Shown here in pieces: positions 52,793 through 60,199 of a stretch of DNA of 64,000 nt. The first letter of the stretch is position 1. Every line of letters starts with the position of its first letter. A program made the translations under genes and the position numbers. The notes under the pieces are model-generated. The model was not told the origin of the DNA and made no database searches. It worked only from the letters and a program-made list of their open reading frames with translations. This stretch comes from an uncultured Latescibacterota bacterium (GTDB lineage Bacteria; Latescibacterota; UBA2968), in NCBI GenBank assembly GCA_958295785.1, contig OY282377.1:4156896-4220895 (forward strand). Reading direction: 5' to 3'.

Positions 52793-54445
52793 ATGAACGA
52801 AAAACACCCCATCAACGCCCTGCCCAAAGGGTATCGGCTCCATGAATACGAACTGGTGCGCGTGCTGGGCTTTGGAGGCTTTGGCATGACGTATTTGGGG
52901 CATGACCTCCATTTGGACAAACCCGTGGCGATCAAAGAATATTTGCCCTCGAACTTTGCCACGCGCACAGGCGATTACAGCGTGGTCCCGCAAGCGAGCA
53001 ATTCTCGCGATGACTTTAAGTGGGGGTTGAAACGCTTTTTGGACGAAGCGCAGACCTTAGCGCTGTTTGACCATCGCCACATCATCAAAGTGCATCGGTT
53101 TTTTGAAGCGCATGGCACGGGGTATATCGTGATGGAATACGCCGAGGGCGAGACCTTGTTGGACTTTCTCGACCGCAAAGGGACGCTGACCGAAAGCGAA
53201 CTCAAGGAGATTCTATTTCCTTTGCTGGCTGGGTTGGAAGCAGTGCATAGGGCAAAATTCTTGCATCGAGACATCAAGCCGGGCAACATCGTCATTCGTG
53301 CCGAGGATGGTTCGCCTGTGTTGATAGACTTTGGCGCGGCGCGTCAGGCCATAGGGACCATAAGCGGTTCCCTTTCCGTCATCCTGACGCCGGGCTACGC
53401 GCCTGTTGAGCAGTATTCGACCAGCGGGGATCAAGGGCCTTGGACGGATATCTATGCGTTGGGTGCGGTATGCTATCGCGCCTTGACAGGTGCTGTGCCC
53501 GATGATGCCATAAAAAGGATGATAGGCGATGCTCCGCTGGTTCCCATTGCCGAGCGATGCAACAAAGATCAAGCGAGCCGGGGCTTTCTGTCGGCGATAG
53601 ATCACGCGCTCCAAGTGAATAAGGAGGATCGTCCGCAGACTATCGGTGCGTGGCGTGCCAAGTTGGTGCCGGATAAGCCGCATCCTCCGCGACCAGGCGA
53701 GACATTCAAGGACTGTGCGGAGGGTCCGCAGATGGTGGTGGTGCCGCCGGGTTGGTTTATGATGGGTTCGCCGTCGAGTGAGGAGGGTCGTTATGCTGCT
53801 GAAGGGCCTCAGCATCGTGTTGAGATCGGTTATCGGTTGGCAGTGGGGGTGTATGCGGTGACGTTTGCCGAGTGGGATGCGTGTGTGTCGGGGGGTGGGT
53901 GCAACGGGTATCGTCCAAATGATGTGGGTTGGGGTCGCGGCACTCGTCCAGTGATCAATGTAAGTTGGGAAGATGCCCAGGCGTATGTGTCTTGGTTGTC
54001 TTCCAGGACGGGTCATTCGTATCGTTTGTTGAGTGAATCGGAGTGGGAGTATGTTGCGCGTGCAGGAACGACGACGCCTTTTCATTTTGGTGAGACAATC
54101 TCGACGTCTCAAGCGAACTACTATGGAGATTACACGTATGGTTCTGGCCGTAAAGGGGTGTATCGCGGGAAGACCGTGCCAGTGGGTTCATTTCCGCCAA
54201 ATGCGTTTGGATTGTACGATGTTCACGGGAATGTATATGAATGGACGCAGGATTGTCGGAATGATAGCTATTCAGGCGCTCCTGATGACGGTTCAGCGTG
54301 GGAGCGTGGCGATTGCTCTATGCGCGTGTTGCGTGGCGGTTCTTGGGTCGTCGGACCCAGGTCTCTGCGCTCGGCAAACCGCGTCAGGGACTCCACCGGA
54401 GACCGGAACAGCTACGATGGTTTTCGAGTTGCCCGGTGCTTTTAA
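52793..54445 (+). CDS. DGR target protein 1: Ser/Thr kinase fused to FGE-sulfatase domain
   Basis: A 550-residue soluble protein. The Hanks-type kinase domain (about 14-275) looks active: glycine loop VLGFGGFGMTYLG, VAIKEY lysine, HRDIKPGN (D160), DFG (D179). A short linker leads to an FGE-sulfatase/SUMF1 domain (about 300-549) beginning MVVVPPGWFMMGSPSSEE and ending GGSW...GFRVARCF, the C-type-lectin-like fold used by DGR variable proteins. Codons 519-542 are the variable repeat. The ATG follows GAGG by 6 nt. First of three paralogues; long stretches are nearly identical in DNA to the third copy. Confidence 0.93.
   Translation: MNEKHPINALPKGYRLHEYELVRVLGFGGFGMTYLGHDLHLDKPVAIKEYLPSNFATRTGDYSVVPQASNSRDDFKWGLKRFLDEAQTLALFDHRHIIKVHRFFEAHGTGYIVMEYAEGETLLDFLDRKGTLTESELKEILFPLLAGLEAVHRAKFLHRDIKPGNIVIRAEDGSPVLIDFGAARQAIGTISGSLSVILTPGYAPVEQYSTSGDQGPWTDIYALGAVCYRALTGAVPDDAIKRMIGDAPLVPIAERCNKDQASRGFLSAIDHALQVNKEDRPQTIGAWRAKLVPDKPHPPRPGETFKDCAEGPQMVVVPPGWFMMGSPSSEEGRYAAEGPQHRVEIGYRLAVGVYAVTFAEWDACVSGGGCNGYRPNDVGWGRGTRPVINVSWEDAQAYVSWLSSRTGHSYRLLSESEWEYVARAGTTTPFHFGETISTSQANYYGDYTYGSGRKGVYRGKTVPVGSFPPNAFGLYDVHGNVYEWTQDCRNDSYSGAPDDGSAWERGDCSMRVLRGGSWVVGPRSLRSANRVRDSTGDRNSYDGFRVARCF
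54322..54435 (+). repeat. DGR variable repeat VR1
   Basis: 114 bp aligned without gaps to the template at 60086-60199. There are 17 differences, and all lie at template adenines. The first 25 bp and the last 31 bp outside the variable codons are unchanged. Confidence 0.97.
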
Positions 54446-54564
54446 GTCTTGCCTCTTTACCTCTTTACCTCTTATGTTTTTGTGGGGGAAAGGGTGTGGA
54501 TTTTGTAGAAAAGTTTTGCGTGGGGTGTTCAATTTTTTTTGGGTTCCCTGCCCTCTCTCTTCCC

Positions 54565-54624
54565 GGCCCTGCCCTTGAAACACAATATCCGTTTCTCTTG
54601 TGGCTGATTCCCAAGCTGGTTTTT
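54565..54624 (+). pseudogene. avd 5' remnant after target gene 1
   Basis: Encodes GPALETQYPFLLWLIPKLVF, nearly the same as avd residues GPALEAHYQFLLWLIPTLERF at 58681. The rest of avd is missing, and the sequence passes into the leader of target gene 2. The whole 321-bp gap (54446-54769) is otherwise non-coding and matches the gap after target gene 2. Confidence 0.85.
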
Positions 54625-54769
54625 ATGGGCACGATGAGGGGGCATTGCAATTGGCATTGCCCAAGCAAAAAAGAAATGGCGTTGAACGAACCAATCGGGG
54701 CAATCTCGTTTGGACAATTTGATCAAACGACGGTAAAAAAATGACCCCAACCACAGATAGGAGGATATG

Positions 54770-56530
54770 ATGCCAGAAGCACAACACCCCAAGCATGCCC
54801 TGCCCCTAGGGTATCGGCTCCAGGAATACGAACTGGTGCGCGTGCTAGGCTCTGGGGGATTTGGCAGGACGTATTTGGGCTATGACCACAAATTGGACAG
54901 ACCCGTGGCGATTAAAGAATATTTTCCTTCGGACCATGCCACGCGGCGTACAAAAGATTTCAGCGGGGTCCCGCAACCGATTGAATTGCGCGATAAAGAT
55001 AAATTTGAGTGGTGGCAACACTTTTTGGACGAAGCGCGTACCTTAGCCCGGTTTGACCATCGCCACATCATCAAAGTGTATGATTTTTTTGAAGCGCATA
55101 ACACGGGGTATATCGTGATGGAATACGCCGAGGGCGAGCCCCTGTCGGACTTTCTCGACCGCAAAGGGGTGCTGACCGAAGGCGAACTCAAGGAGATTCT
55201 ATTTCCGTTGCTGGATGGGTTGAAAGTCGTGCATGGGGCAAAATTTTTGCATCGAGACATCAAGCCGGGCAACATCGTCATTCGCGCCGAGGACGCTTCG
55301 CCTATGTTGATAGACTTTGGCGCGGCGCGTCAGGCCATAGGGGTCATGAACATGAACCGTGCCTTTACATTCCTCCTGACAGCGGGCTACGCGCCTGTTG
55401 AGCAGTATCCGCCCGAGTATTGGCCCCGCAGGGATCTAAGGCAAGGGCCTTGGACGGATCTCTATGCGTTGGGTGCGGTATGCTATCACGCCTTGACGGG
55501 CAAGGAGCCACCTGAAGCCATAGCTAGGATGATCAATGATCCGCTGGTTCCCCTTGCCGAGCGATGTAGCGAGGATCAAGCGAGCCAGGGCTTTCTGTCG
55601 GCGATAGATCGTGCGCTCCAAGTGGATGAGGAGGCTCGTCCGCAAACCATCGATGCGTGGCTTGCCGAGTTGGGCCCTAAGCCGATTCCTAAGCCGATTC
55701 CGCCACGACCAGGCGAGACATTCAAGGACTGTGCGGAGGGTCCGCAGATGGTGGTGGTGCCGCCGGGTTGGTTTATGATGGGTTCGCCGTCGAGTGAGGA
55801 GGAACGTTATGTTGCTGAAGGGCCTCAGCATCGTGTTGAGATCGGGTATGGGTTGGCAGTGGGGGTGAATGCGGTGACGTTTGCCGAGTGGGATGCGTGT
55901 GTGTCGGGGGGTGGGTGCAACGGGTATCGTCCAAATGATGCGGGTTGGGGTCGCGGTCGTCGTCCCGTGATCAGTGTAACTTGGGAAGATGCCCAGGCGT
56001 ATGTGTCTTGGTTGTCTTCCAGGACGGGTCATTCGTATCGTTTGTTGAGTGAATCGGAGTGGGAGTATGTTGCGCGTGCAGGAACGACGACGCCTTTTCA
56101 TTTTGGTGAGACAATCTCGACGGATCAAGCGAACTACTATGGAAATTACACGTATGGTTCTGGCAGGAAAGGGGTGTATCGCGCCTTGCCTGTAGGTCCG
56201 CAAGGACTTGGCGCGCAAAGAAGCCCTGAAGGCAGGAAAGGGGTGTATCGCGAGCAGACCTTGCCAGTGGGTTCATTTTCGTCAAATGCGTTTGGGTTGT
56301 ACGATATTCATGGGAATGTATGGGAATGGACGCAGGATTGTTGGAATGATAGCTATTTAGGTGCTCCTGGTGACGGTTCAGCGTGGTTGCGTGGCGATTG
56401 CTCTGTGCGCGTGTTGCGTGGCGGTTCTTGGGACAGCGAACCCTGGTTTCTGCGCTCGGCGCACCGCGGCAGGAACCCCACCGGGAACCGGAGCCTTGAC
56501 TATGGTTTTCGAGTTGCCCGGTGCTTTTAA
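54770..56530 (+). CDS. DGR target protein 2: Ser/Thr kinase fused to FGE-sulfatase domain
   Basis: A 586-residue paralogue of target protein 1 with the same kinase motifs (VLGSGGFGRTYLG, VAIKEYFPSD, HRDIKPGN, LIDFGAARQ) and FGE domain. The activation segment has an insertion (YPPEYWPRRDLRQGP), and an extra 23 residues sit in the FGE domain from a 69-bp duplication/insertion at 56162-56252. Two adjacent ATGs exist (54767 and 54770); the second is better spaced from AGGAGG. The variable repeat covers codons 555-578. It probably shares a transcript with the other targets. Confidence 0.92.
   Translation: MPEAQHPKHALPLGYRLQEYELVRVLGSGGFGRTYLGYDHKLDRPVAIKEYFPSDHATRRTKDFSGVPQPIELRDKDKFEWWQHFLDEARTLARFDHRHIIKVYDFFEAHNTGYIVMEYAEGEPLSDFLDRKGVLTEGELKEILFPLLDGLKVVHGAKFLHRDIKPGNIVIRAEDASPMLIDFGAARQAIGVMNMNRAFTFLLTAGYAPVEQYPPEYWPRRDLRQGPWTDLYALGAVCYHALTGKEPPEAIARMINDPLVPLAERCSEDQASQGFLSAIDRALQVDEEARPQTIDAWLAELGPKPIPKPIPPRPGETFKDCAEGPQMVVVPPGWFMMGSPSSEEERYVAEGPQHRVEIGYGLAVGVNAVTFAEWDACVSGGGCNGYRPNDAGWGRGRRPVISVTWEDAQAYVSWLSSRTGHSYRLLSESEWEYVARAGTTTPFHFGETISTDQANYYGNYTYGSGRKGVYRALPVGPQGLGAQRSPEGRKGVYREQTLPVGSFSSNAFGLYDIHGNVWEWTQDCWNDSYLGAPGDGSAWLRGDCSVRVLRGGSWDSEPWFLRSAHRGRNPTGNRSLDYGFRVARCF
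56162..56252 (+). repeat. 22-bp direct repeat bounding a 69-bp in-frame insertion
   Basis: GGCAGGAAAGGGGTGTATCG occurs at 56162 and again at 56231. The 69-bp period adds 23 codons found in neither sister gene. The inserted part contains a small hairpin (GTCCGCAAGGAC). Confidence 0.85.
56407..56520 (+). repeat. DGR variable repeat VR2
   Basis: 114 bp aligned to the template without gaps. 18 differences lie at template adenines, plus one C-to-T in a codon that reads AAC in the template and CTT here. Confidence 0.97.
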
Positions 56531-56635
56531 GTCTTGCCTCTTTACCTCTTTTGTTTTTGTGGGGGAAGGGGTGTGGATTTTGTAGAAAAGTTTTGCGTTT
56601 CGATTTTTTTTTGGTTCCCTGCCCTCTCTCTTCCC

Positions 56636-56695
56636 GGCCCTGCCCTTGAATCGCAATATCCGTTTCTCTTGTGGCTGATTCCCAAGCTGGTTTTT
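56636..56695 (+). pseudogene. avd 5' remnant after target gene 2
   Basis: Encodes GPALESQYPFLLWLIPKLVF, matching the avd N-terminus and the remnant at 54565. The shared spacer of about 300 bp includes the leader GGAGGATAT before the next target gene. Confidence 0.85.
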
Positions 56696-56833
56696 ATGGG
56701 CAAGGTGATGGGCATTGCATTGGCATTGCCCAAGAAAAAAAGAAATGGCGTTGAACCAATCGGGCAATCCCGTTTGGACAAATTGATCAAACGACGGGAA
56801 AAAAATAACCCCAACCACAGACAGGAGGATATA

Positions 56834-58495
56834 ATGCCTGTTTATCGAGACGACGAAGAGAAACTCGAGCTGCCCCTAGGGTATCGGCTCCAGAAATACG
56901 AACTGATGCACGTGCTAGGCTCTGGGGGATTTGGCATAACGTATTTGGGCAAAGACCACAATTTGAACAGGCCCGTGGCGATCAAAGAATATTTTCCCTT
57001 GAACTCTGCCATGCGGCGTACAAGCGATCTCAGCGTGGTCCCGCAAATTAAATTTCGCGATAAATTTGAGCAGTGGCGGAAACGCTTTTTGGACGAAGCG
57101 CGTACCTTAGCCCGGTTTGACCATCGCCACATCATCAAAGTGTATGATTTTTTTGAAGCGCATAACACGGGGTATATCGTGATGGAATACGCCGAGGGCG
57201 AGCCCCTGTCAGCCTATCTGAAACGCAAAGGGGTGCTGACCGAAAGCGAACTCAAGGAGATTCTATTTCCGTTGCTGGATGGGTTGAAAGTCGTGCATGG
57301 GGCAAAATTCCTTCATCGAGACATCAAGCCGGGCAACATCGTCATTCGCGCCGAGGATGGTTCGCCTGTGTTGATAGACTTTGGCGCGGCGCGTCAGGCC
57401 ATAGGGACCATAAGCGGTTCCCTTTCCGTCATCCTGACGCCGGGCTACGCGCCTGTTGAGCAGTATTCGACCAGCGGGGATCAAGGGCCTTGGACGGATA
57501 TCTATGCGTTGGGTGCGGTATGCTATCGCGCCTTGACAGGTGCTGTGCCCGATGATGCCATAAAAAGGATGATAGGCGATGCTCCGCTGGTTCCCATTGC
57601 CGAGCGATGCGCCGAGGATCAAGCGAGCCGGGGCTTTCTGTCGGCGATAGATCACGCGCTCCAAGTGAATAAGGAGGATCGTCCGCAGACTATCGGTGCG
57701 TGGCGTGCCAAGTTGGTGCCGGATAAGCCGCATCCTCCGCGACCAGGCGAGACATTCAAGGACTGTGCGGAGGGTCCGCAGATGGTGGTGGTGCCGCCGG
57801 GTTGGTTTATGATGGGTTCGCCGTCGAGTGAGGAGGGTCGTTATGCTGCTGAAGGGCCTCAGCATCGTGTTGAGATCGGTTATCGGTTGGCCGTGGGTGT
57901 GTATGCGGTGACGTTTGCCGAGTGGGATGCGTGTGTGGCGTCGGGTGGGTGCGACGGGTATCGTCCAAGTGATGCGGGTTGGGGTCGCGGCCGTCGTCCA
58001 GTGATCAATGTAAGTTGGGACGATGCCCAGGCGTATGTGTCTTGGTTGTCTAATAAGACAGGTCATTCGTATCGTTTGTTGAGCGAATCGGAGTGGGAGT
58101 ATGTTGCGCGTGCGGGGACGGTGACACCTTTTCACTTTGGGGAGACGATCTCGACGTCTCAAGCGAACTACGATGGAAATTACATGTATGGTTCTGGCAG
58201 GAAAGGGGTGTATCGCGAGCAGACCTTGCCTGTGGGTTCATTTCCGCCAAATGCGTTTGGATTGTACGATGTTCATGGGAATGTATGGGAATGGACGCAG
58301 GATTGTTGGAATGGTAGCTATTCAGGCGCGCCTGGTGATGGTTCATCGTGGGAGCGTGGTGCTTGCTCTCTGCGCGTGTTGCGTGGCGGTTCTTGGCTCA
58401 GCGAGCCCAGGATTCTGCGCTCGGCTATCCGCTTCAGGGACACCTCCGTTATCCGGAACGTCAACAATGGTTTTCGAGTTGCCCGGCGCTTTTAA
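56834..58495 (+). CDS. DGR target protein 3: Ser/Thr kinase fused to FGE-sulfatase domain
   Basis: A 553-residue paralogue with an intact kinase (VLGSGGFGITYLG, VAIKEYFPLN, HRDIKPGN, LIDFGAARQ) and a C-terminal FGE domain. From about 57340 to 57890 the DNA is almost identical to target 1 (53280-53830), pointing to recent duplication or gene conversion. The ATG at 56834 has AGGAGG 5-6 nt upstream; the open frame extends 5' through the avd remnant but no start there is supported. The variable repeat covers codons 522-545. Confidence 0.93.
   Translation: MPVYRDDEEKLELPLGYRLQKYELMHVLGSGGFGITYLGKDHNLNRPVAIKEYFPLNSAMRRTSDLSVVPQIKFRDKFEQWRKRFLDEARTLARFDHRHIIKVYDFFEAHNTGYIVMEYAEGEPLSAYLKRKGVLTESELKEILFPLLDGLKVVHGAKFLHRDIKPGNIVIRAEDGSPVLIDFGAARQAIGTISGSLSVILTPGYAPVEQYSTSGDQGPWTDIYALGAVCYRALTGAVPDDAIKRMIGDAPLVPIAERCAEDQASRGFLSAIDHALQVNKEDRPQTIGAWRAKLVPDKPHPPRPGETFKDCAEGPQMVVVPPGWFMMGSPSSEEGRYAAEGPQHRVEIGYRLAVGVYAVTFAEWDACVASGGCDGYRPSDAGWGRGRRPVINVSWDDAQAYVSWLSNKTGHSYRLLSESEWEYVARAGTVTPFHFGETISTSQANYDGNYMYGSGRKGVYREQTLPVGSFPPNAFGLYDVHGNVWEWTQDCWNGSYSGAPGDGSSWERGACSLRVLRGGSWLSEPRILRSAIRFRDTSVIRNVNNGFRVARRF
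58372..58485 (+). repeat. DGR variable repeat VR3
   Basis: 114 bp aligned to the template without gaps. 17 differences, all at template adenines. Nearest target to avd and the reverse transcriptase. Confidence 0.97.
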
Positions 58496-58629: not shown

Positions 58630-59028
58630 ATGAATACGCAACCCAACCCAAGTCAAGGCTCATCTGTGGCGCGTCAGACCGGCCCTGCCCTTGAAGCGCA
58701 CTATCAGTTTCTCTTGTGGCTGATTCCCACGCTGGAGCGATTCCCGCGTAGCCAAAAGTTCTTGTTGGGCGACCGCATTCAAAGCACGGCCCTCAACGTG
58801 TTGGAATCGCTCATTGATGCCACCTATACCCGGCAGCGCAGCCAGCATCTGGCTCAAGCCAATTTGGGCCTTGAAAAATTGCGCTTTCTCTTGCGCCTCG
58901 CATGGGAGTTGCACCATCTAAACCGCCGCCGCTACGAATACGCCGTCCGCATGGTCAATGAGGTGGGACAGCGTGTGGGCGCGTGGAGAAAGGCACATCA
59001 TGCCCACGAAAGCACGCGATCTGTTTGA
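58630..59028 (+). CDS. avd: DGR accessory variability determinant (Avd)
   Basis: A 132-residue, strongly basic, all-helical protein of the Avd/four-helix-bundle (S23-like) family, with core GDRIQSTALNVLESLIDATY and GLEKLRFLLRLAWELHHL. Avd forms a pentameric barrel that binds the reverse transcriptase and template RNA and is needed for mutagenic cDNA synthesis. Its 3' end overlaps the reverse transcriptase gene by 29 nt. The ribosome-binding site is weak, and translation may depend on the upstream gene. Confidence 0.9.
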   Translation: MNTQPNPSQGSSVARQTGPALEAHYQFLLWLIPTLERFPRSQKFLLGDRIQSTALNVLESLIDATYTRQRSQHLAQANLGLEKLRFLLRLAWELHHLNRRRYEYAVRMVNEVGQRVGAWRKAHHAHESTRSV

Positions 59029-60085
59029 CGACATGGCCTCGTTTTCCGCTTTGCTAACGGCCAGCCAATGCGCCGCCAAAGGCAAGAGAGCCAAACCGGG
59101 TGTGGCGGCATTTCTCGCCAATTTAGAAAAAGAGATCTTGCGCTTGGAATGGGAACTCACCACGGGTCACTACCGACCTGGTCGCTACACCGAGATCGAA
59201 ATTTTCGACCCCAAGCATCGCATTGTCTCGGCTGCGCCCTTCCGCGACCGGGTGGTGCATCACGCTTTTTGCGCGGTGTGCAACCCAATTTTTGAGCGCG
59301 GCTTTATTTACGATAGCTACGCCAACCGCAAAGGCAAAGGGACGCACCGGGCAATCGCCCGCTACGAGACATTCCGCGACCACTTCCGCTATGTTCTTCG
59401 CTGCGACCTCTATCGCTATTTTCCCGCCATTGACCACGAAATTCTCAAGCGCGACCTGCGGCGGCGCATTGCTTGTGCGCGGACATTGGCCTTGGGGGAT
59501 CAGATCATCGATGCCTCCAATCCCCAAGAGCCGGTCAACCGCTACTATCCGGGCGACGATCTGTTTACACCCTATACGCGGCGGCGCGGCCTACCCATTG
59601 GCAATCTCACCAGCCAGTTTTTTGCCAATGTGTATCTGGATGGCCTGGATCACTTTTGCAAAGAAGTGTTGCGGGCCAAGGGCTATGTGCGTTATGTTGA
59701 CGACTTTGCGCTGTTCCACGACGACCCCAAACAACTCGGTGCATGGCGCGAGCGTATCGCTCGTTTTTTGGAAGGCCGCCGGTTGTGCCTGCATCAGGAA
59801 AAGACCGAGATTATCGAAACAGAAGCACCGACCACCTTTTTGGGCTTTGTGCTCTTGCCCGGCGGGTATCGGCGGTTGCCCGAAGCCAATGTGCGTCGCT
59901 TCCGCAACCGGCTACGGAGTATGCGCGACCGCTGGCACCAGGGCCATATCACACACGAGGAAGTGGTCGCTCGGGTATGCGCGTGGATCGCGCATGCCAA
60001 TCATGCCCATACATGGCGGTTGCGCCATGCGATCTTTCGAGGTGGGTGGTTCGATCCGCTTTGGAAGCCTGACCGTCCCCCCTAA
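59000..60085 (+). CDS. DGR reverse transcriptase
   Basis: A 361-residue reverse transcriptase. The DGR hallmark in motif 4 is GLPIGNLTSQ (197-206), and the catalytic motif is YVDD (232-235). The N-terminal region has APFRDRVVHHAFC and DSYANRKGKGTHRAI, as in group II and DGR enzymes. It copies the template RNA with errors at adenines. The ATG at 59000 follows AAAGG by 6 nt, and the gene overlaps avd. Its TAA is directly followed by the template repeat. Confidence 0.96.
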   Translation: MPTKARDLFDDMASFSALLTASQCAAKGKRAKPGVAAFLANLEKEILRLEWELTTGHYRPGRYTEIEIFDPKHRIVSAAPFRDRVVHHAFCAVCNPIFERGFIYDSYANRKGKGTHRAIARYETFRDHFRYVLRCDLYRYFPAIDHEILKRDLRRRIACARTLALGDQIIDASNPQEPVNRYYPGDDLFTPYTRRRGLPIGNLTSQFFANVYLDGLDHFCKEVLRAKGYVRYVDDFALFHDDPKQLGAWRERIARFLEGRRLCLHQEKTEIIETEAPTTFLGFVLLPGGYRRLPEANVRRFRNRLRSMRDRWHQGHITHEEVVARVCAWIAHANHAHTWRLRHAIFRGGWFDPLWKPDRPP

Positions 60086-60199
60086 GCGCGTGTTGCGTGG
60101 CGGTTCTTGGAACAACAAACCCAGGAATCTGCGCTCGGCAAACCGCAACAGGAACACCACCGAAAACCGGAACAACAACAATGGTTTTCGAGTTGCCCG
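60086..60199 (+). repeat. DGR template repeat (TR)
   Basis: 114 bp, beginning at the base after the reverse transcriptase stop. Of the 24 codon positions in the variable core, eleven read AAC or AAT, so adenine substitution can reach many residues but not a stop codon there. The core has 32 adenines. All three variable repeats align over the full length without gaps. Confidence 0.97.

Follow-up and report, generated by a model that had tools for sequence, protein, structure and literature searches.

Avd–motA chimeric spacers in a Latescibacterota diversity-generating retroelement as probable scars of target duplication

The window analysed here, a stretch of 64,000 nucleotides from an uncultured Latescibacterota bacterium, harbors three consecutive target genes followed by avd, and the spacers behind the first two targets encode short segments resembling the amino-terminus of Avd. 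The question raised by this arrangement is whether the segments are working parts of the locus or a record of how its targets multiplied.

The retroelement and its targets

Three aligned target repeats are present on the + strand, namely, the ORFs T1 (52793..54445) and T2 (54767..56530) and the gene T3 (56834..58495). The domains were shown on T3, which contains a protein kinase (PF00069) and an FGE-sulfatase domain (PF03781); T1 is taken to have the same make-up of a kinase and an FGE-sulfatase/C-lectin fold. T3 is followed on the same strand by avd (58630..59028; PF22296 bAvd, E 2e-18; phrog_3206 Avd), an overlapping ORF for a reverse transcriptase (RT) of the diversity-generating retroelement (DGR) type with a YVDD motif (58958..60085; PF00078 (RVT_1), E 9e-17; phrog_1423, E 3e-109), and the template repeat TR (60082..60199). 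Each target carries a VR on the + strand (T1, 54318..54435; T2, 56403-56520; T3, 58368-58485), and that of T3 sits at the end of the FGE-sulfatase domain, i.e., at the C-terminus of the predicted C-lectin-fold target. Mismatches to the TR were located at TR adenines in 18/18, 20/21, and 19/19 cases, respectively. Comparison of the TR with seven VRs, three in the window and four beyond it, placed 133 of the 138 mismatches at TR adenines; hence, the DGR acts, or recently acted, on all seven. With a DGR-type RT, a TR/VR pair, and Avd all present, the locus is, judged by its sequence, a DGR.

The full-length avd is a single copy in the window genome, where no trace of a second RT or TR was found, and one intact avd, RT, and TR appear to serve all seven targets. 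Among 64 genomes of the phylum, a close full-length avd was present in the window genome only, and an RT scan of viral contigs revealed no viral relatives. Traces of the DGR were observed in related genomes. A lone avd fragment (AYVRQTGPALEAHYQF), with no target or RT, was found in a sister species (genome G007, L208:5734-5811), and a same-genus genome harbors two target-like genes (L024:5304-10360) with the RT present only as a fragment (aa 227-346, 85% identical); the DGR is disappearing there. The hairpin after the VR is weak in the window (predicted −6 to −11 kcal/mol). A strong GC-rich hairpin soon after the VR, lacking in the window locus, was seen in Nitrospirales and Binatota (L018:4390-4420, L080:9020-9050, and L019:9615-9640).

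Chimeric structure of the spacers

Self-BLAST and a repeat search revealed that avd nt 50-106 (window 58679-58735) recurs in both spacers with 91-93% identity (E about 1e-17 to 1e-19). Remnant 1 (54563..54619; 91%, E 3e-17) and remnant 2 (56634..56690; 93%, E 6e-19) lie on the + strand and have the same ends, each consisting of 19 codons (PALExQYPFLLWLIPKL) that correspond to avd codons about 17-35. They are preceded by the 3' flanks of T1 (54446..54562, +) and T2 (56531..56633, +), and the T-rich and G-rich tract next to the remnants is also common to the region upstream of avd (94% over 115 nt). The sequence-only reading had noticed about 20 Avd-like residues after targets 1 and 2 as well as the shared flanking tracts, and both observations were borne out, the similarity being far beyond chance. 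The equal distance from the stop codon, which it had also described, was not observed: the block starts 118 and 104 nt past the target stop in the two spacers and 184 nt in the real avd, because the same 66 nt, including the avd start codon, are missing from both remnants.

Downstream of the remnants, the spacers continue with the 3' end and leader of a MotA/ExbB-like gene (motA; family PF01618), which extend over 54620..54766 and 56691..56833 (+) and end in the RBS of T2 and T3, respectively. In the window genome itself, the segment after the remnant matched a motA-like ORF before T4 (90% over 113 nt, E 2e-38), and the T3-side spacer matched the motA of a sister genome across the junction (80%, E 6e-9). 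Its interpretation as the decayed 3' part of avd was rejected, as it matches motA. At the junction, avd and motA (of genomes G004 and G005) share 14 identical bases, TGGCTGATTCCCAC. The intact motA encodes WLIPTMGFIGTVVGIAFALDY...LHIAQGREEMALNQSGQ, and the spacer encodes PALExQYPFLL-WLIPKL-(G/V)FMGTMRGIALAL-PK...IGQSRLDKLIKRREK, i.e., avd up to WLIP and MotA thereafter. The spacer contains one internal motA deletion, and the motA copy before T4 has an internal deletion as well. WLIP and the 14 nt are indeed common to Avd and MotA, and a chance similarity or a convergence of the two proteins on this motif might be invoked; but the avd identity comprises 57 nt at 91-93%, mostly upstream of WLIP, and 115 nt of 94% identical target-avd flank precede it. 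We give this explanation practically no credence, as the self-BLAST identity of avd and flank already refutes it.

A search of the window genome with the second spacer showed that the array runs about 9 kb past the window, in the order motA-like ORF, T4, J4, T5, J5, T6, J6, T7, J7, FHA gene, and PP2C gene, with J denoting a chimeric spacer; the motA-like ORF stands directly before T4, and the last junction copy precedes the FHA gene. T6 has lost its FGE domain, and J6 is an eroded, further deleted copy. T7 (L012:6662-9463) has two FGE domains and a separate diversified VR in each. All five readable remnants (two in the window and three beyond) match avd nt 50-106 with identical ends, which excludes an independent avd deletion in each spacer. 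As all copies share their junctions, the scar formed once and was then amplified with its target. J1, J5, and J7 are 98-99% identical despite lying in different arrays, from which it follows that the arrays exchange sequence.

In five same-genus genomes, the corresponding neighbourhood consists of FHA, motA, FHA2 (MPVYRGPDGKIIEE...), kinase, and PP2C genes with trypsin-FHA and VWA genes upstream, and FHA is the normal neighbour of motA. This operon (trypsin-FHA, VWA, FHA, MotA/ExbB, FHA, kinase, and PP2C; L059-L064) is conserved in the genus, and in the window genome it has received the DGR with its targets; it is akin to the conflict-system settings of other DGR targets. The second array sits between motA and the FHA gene in the FHA2 position, and T3-T6 start with M(P/L)VYRDD(E)..., resembling FHA2, the gene after motA in the sister genomes. 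The leader of T1 is not derived from motA. Elsewhere in the genome, a remote kinase-FGE target (L013:8794-11397; C1 at about 0.67 Mb) was found 3.5 Mb from the RT; all 14 mismatches of its VR are at TR adenines, and no avd piece lies behind it. A degenerate target fragment with a VR (L014:8200-8673; C1 at about 0.78 Mb) has 18/28 mismatches at TR adenines.

Comparable scars in Nitrospirota and Binatota

Fragments of the avd 5' part behind targets with no nearby RT were also found at 15 Nitrospirota and 2 Binatota loci, with one more inside a complete Nitrospirales array (L018). In 296 Nitrospirota genomes, all 15 examined N-terminal-only avd fragments were downstream of a C-lectin target with no RT nearby. 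Several of them have a junction or downstream sequence in common; truncated units were therefore copied or inherited in this phylum as well. In an independent look at Nitrospirota, 39 matches to the VR 3' end were sorted. Of these, 4 were complete units, at least 11 were targets followed by a fragment of avd, and about 19 were targets lacking one; TRs, weak hits, and a contig end made up the rest. Among the roughly 30 targets with no RT in the vicinity, about 11 carry the fragment. The L018 array contains 11 targets, and one of its spacers matches the target flank and about 100 nt of avd with 92% identity before passing into the post-TR flank. This joining of avd 5' to the post-TR flank implies that avd 3'-RT-TR was deleted there, and a cassette followed by a deletion does fit this locus. 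In Binatota, the L080 target is followed by a piece of avd that has an internal deletion and ends at about codon 51, and then by an ORF that, by its appearance, we take to be a putative IS3-type transposase. L209 consists of target-avd-RT-TR and a second target whose avd is broken at PRSQ and contains a stop. These fragments indicate that many detached targets in both phyla are probably cut-down copies of target-avd units. In addition, L111 carries a second, frameshifted avd fragment, and avd seems frameshifted at L018:9651-10041 and L019:9711-10222 (in L019, the RT start too), by decay or possibly assembly error.

No avd fragment extends past codon 69 of about 130, and in the 296 Nitrospirota genomes, truncated copies ending at codons 71-115 were seen only as matches full of stop codons. 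At the loci examined, the retained fragments end roughly 180-280 nt past the VR. Under uniform breaks, such clustering has a probability of 5e-7 if all 15 junctions are independent and of 1e-3 if 7 are, the junction list and end positions being the analyst's own reading and the number of independent junctions (about 15 in all) judged by eye from shared downstream sequence. Homing by the DGR might itself seed rearrangements, with repeated breaks near the VR being repaired in ways that duplicate or truncate sequence and leave 3' ends no more than a few hundred bases away from it. We regard this as doubtful; if true, the scar would be an imprint of the process by which DGRs disperse their targets.

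Origin of the scars and relation to known systems

The recurrence of the avd 5' segment behind targets in three phyla, with ends in a narrow range, could suggest a retained functional element, either a DNA or RNA homing site or a short Avd peptide. The Nitrospirota copies mostly keep the start codon and a low pN/pS, although the latter is uninformative for such fragments, with synonymous sites near saturation. Against such a role, about 19 of some 30 Nitrospirota targets lack the segment, as does the remote L013 target, whose VR has changed only at TR adenines; the start codon is lost in the window, and the copies in L111, L080, and L209 have a frameshift, an internal deletion, and a stop, respectively. 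Moreover, the target site of Bordetella phage BPP-1 needs at most 35 bp downstream of the VR (PMC3240598). An essential cis element or a mini-Avd gene is disfavoured by the targets that lack the piece and by the frameshifted copy, as is any regulatory sequence on which targets would depend, and we consider a function very improbable. Since L013 and the 19 or so Nitrospirota targets do without it, the avd segments are best read as relics not required for target diversification.

We consider it probable (about 0.7) that the segments are fossil halves of one recombination junction, formed by a tandem target duplication and then amplified. Starting from the order motA - target - avd, the short stretch shared by avd and motA would have recombined, giving a tandem duplication of a unit that reached from the 3' end of motA through the target to the 5' end of avd. 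As such a unit ends in the avd 5' part, the duplication alone would have truncated avd, and no subsequent deletion of avd need be invoked. The start codon of avd and a portion of motA would then have been lost by small deletions, and the truncated unit would have been multiplied by unequal homologous exchange to give two arrays holding seven targets. The scars would do nothing and be kept along with the VR; they would persist because they lie directly behind it. The duplication proposed in the sequence-only reading is hence right, and its order of events is not: the spacers do carry avd-derived scars of target duplication, but a later deletion of avd from each spacer disagrees with five remnants that have the same two ends and the same motA fusion.

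This origin is supported by the identical ends of the five remnants, the tail matching both own and sister motA even across the junction, the 14-nt junction identity, the motA-like ORF before T4 and the last junction before FHA, the identity of up to 99% between junction spacers of the two arrays, the action of one TR on all intact VRs, and the comparable fragments in L018, L080, L209, and the 15 Nitrospirota loci. Against it, the precursor motA - target - full avd was not found among the 64 genomes of the phylum, and this origin does not account for the narrow range within which avd is cut off in different lineages. A later rearrangement must also be assumed, since T1 has no motA leader and the RT-bearing array is now upstream of motA. 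Furthermore, the same junction would result if a larger block had been duplicated and had then undergone a single deletion. A whole block target-avd-RT-TR-...-motA could have been copied, one deletion from avd to the next motA removing avd 3'-RT-TR before the junction was amplified. The order avd-RT-TR-...-motA still exists in the window genome today, and this course of events is close to L018, with its avd 5' joined to the post-TR flank, and to L209, where a complete cassette precedes a second target with a broken avd. It is nevertheless rather unlikely, as it takes two events instead of one, and no trace of a second RT or TR was found in the genome. Duplication at the avd/motA junction is the simplest account, and the scar could also represent one deletion in a larger duplicated block. 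By the time of amplification, the duplicated unit retained no more of avd than the front part, and the spacer is an avd/motA chimera, a scar and not a device.

Duplicated, remote, and trans-served DGR targets are already known (PMC10907252, PMC7517822, PMC4891356); no description of avd scars was found in the open-access papers searched. The DGR of BPP-1 (mtd-avd-TR-brt; PMC3240598) has the same parts (target, avd, RT, and TR) and adenine-specific VR change. In contrast to it, the window locus has the TR after the RT, several targets, and only a weak predicted hairpin after the VR, and its targets are kinase-FGE proteins instead of a phage tail protein. The DGRs of Thiohalocapsa PB-PSB1 (PMC10907252) likewise have more than one target, with duplication, domain shuffling, and incomplete loci that are served in trans. 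In that case, transposons and MITE-like repeats were held responsible and the word avd is absent from the paper, whereas in the window avd is fused to the host motA at a 14-nt match. Cyanobacterial target paralogs were also duplicated and dispersed within the genome, with no mention of avd remnants (PMC7517822). In Treponema denticola, the extra remote targets were proposed to represent either leftovers of core modules or duplications of them, a choice that was left open and in which an avd scar is not mentioned (PMC4891356); a scar of the type seen in the window offers a test of that suggestion. As a sequence marker, the avd 5' scar is cheap to use: it identifies a detached target as one that formerly stood before avd, and its junction tells how the target unit was cut. 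In the window genome, the truncated unit, once made, multiplied into a family of seven kinase-type targets sharing one mutator, and the scar is of value for tracing the multiplication of DGR targets.
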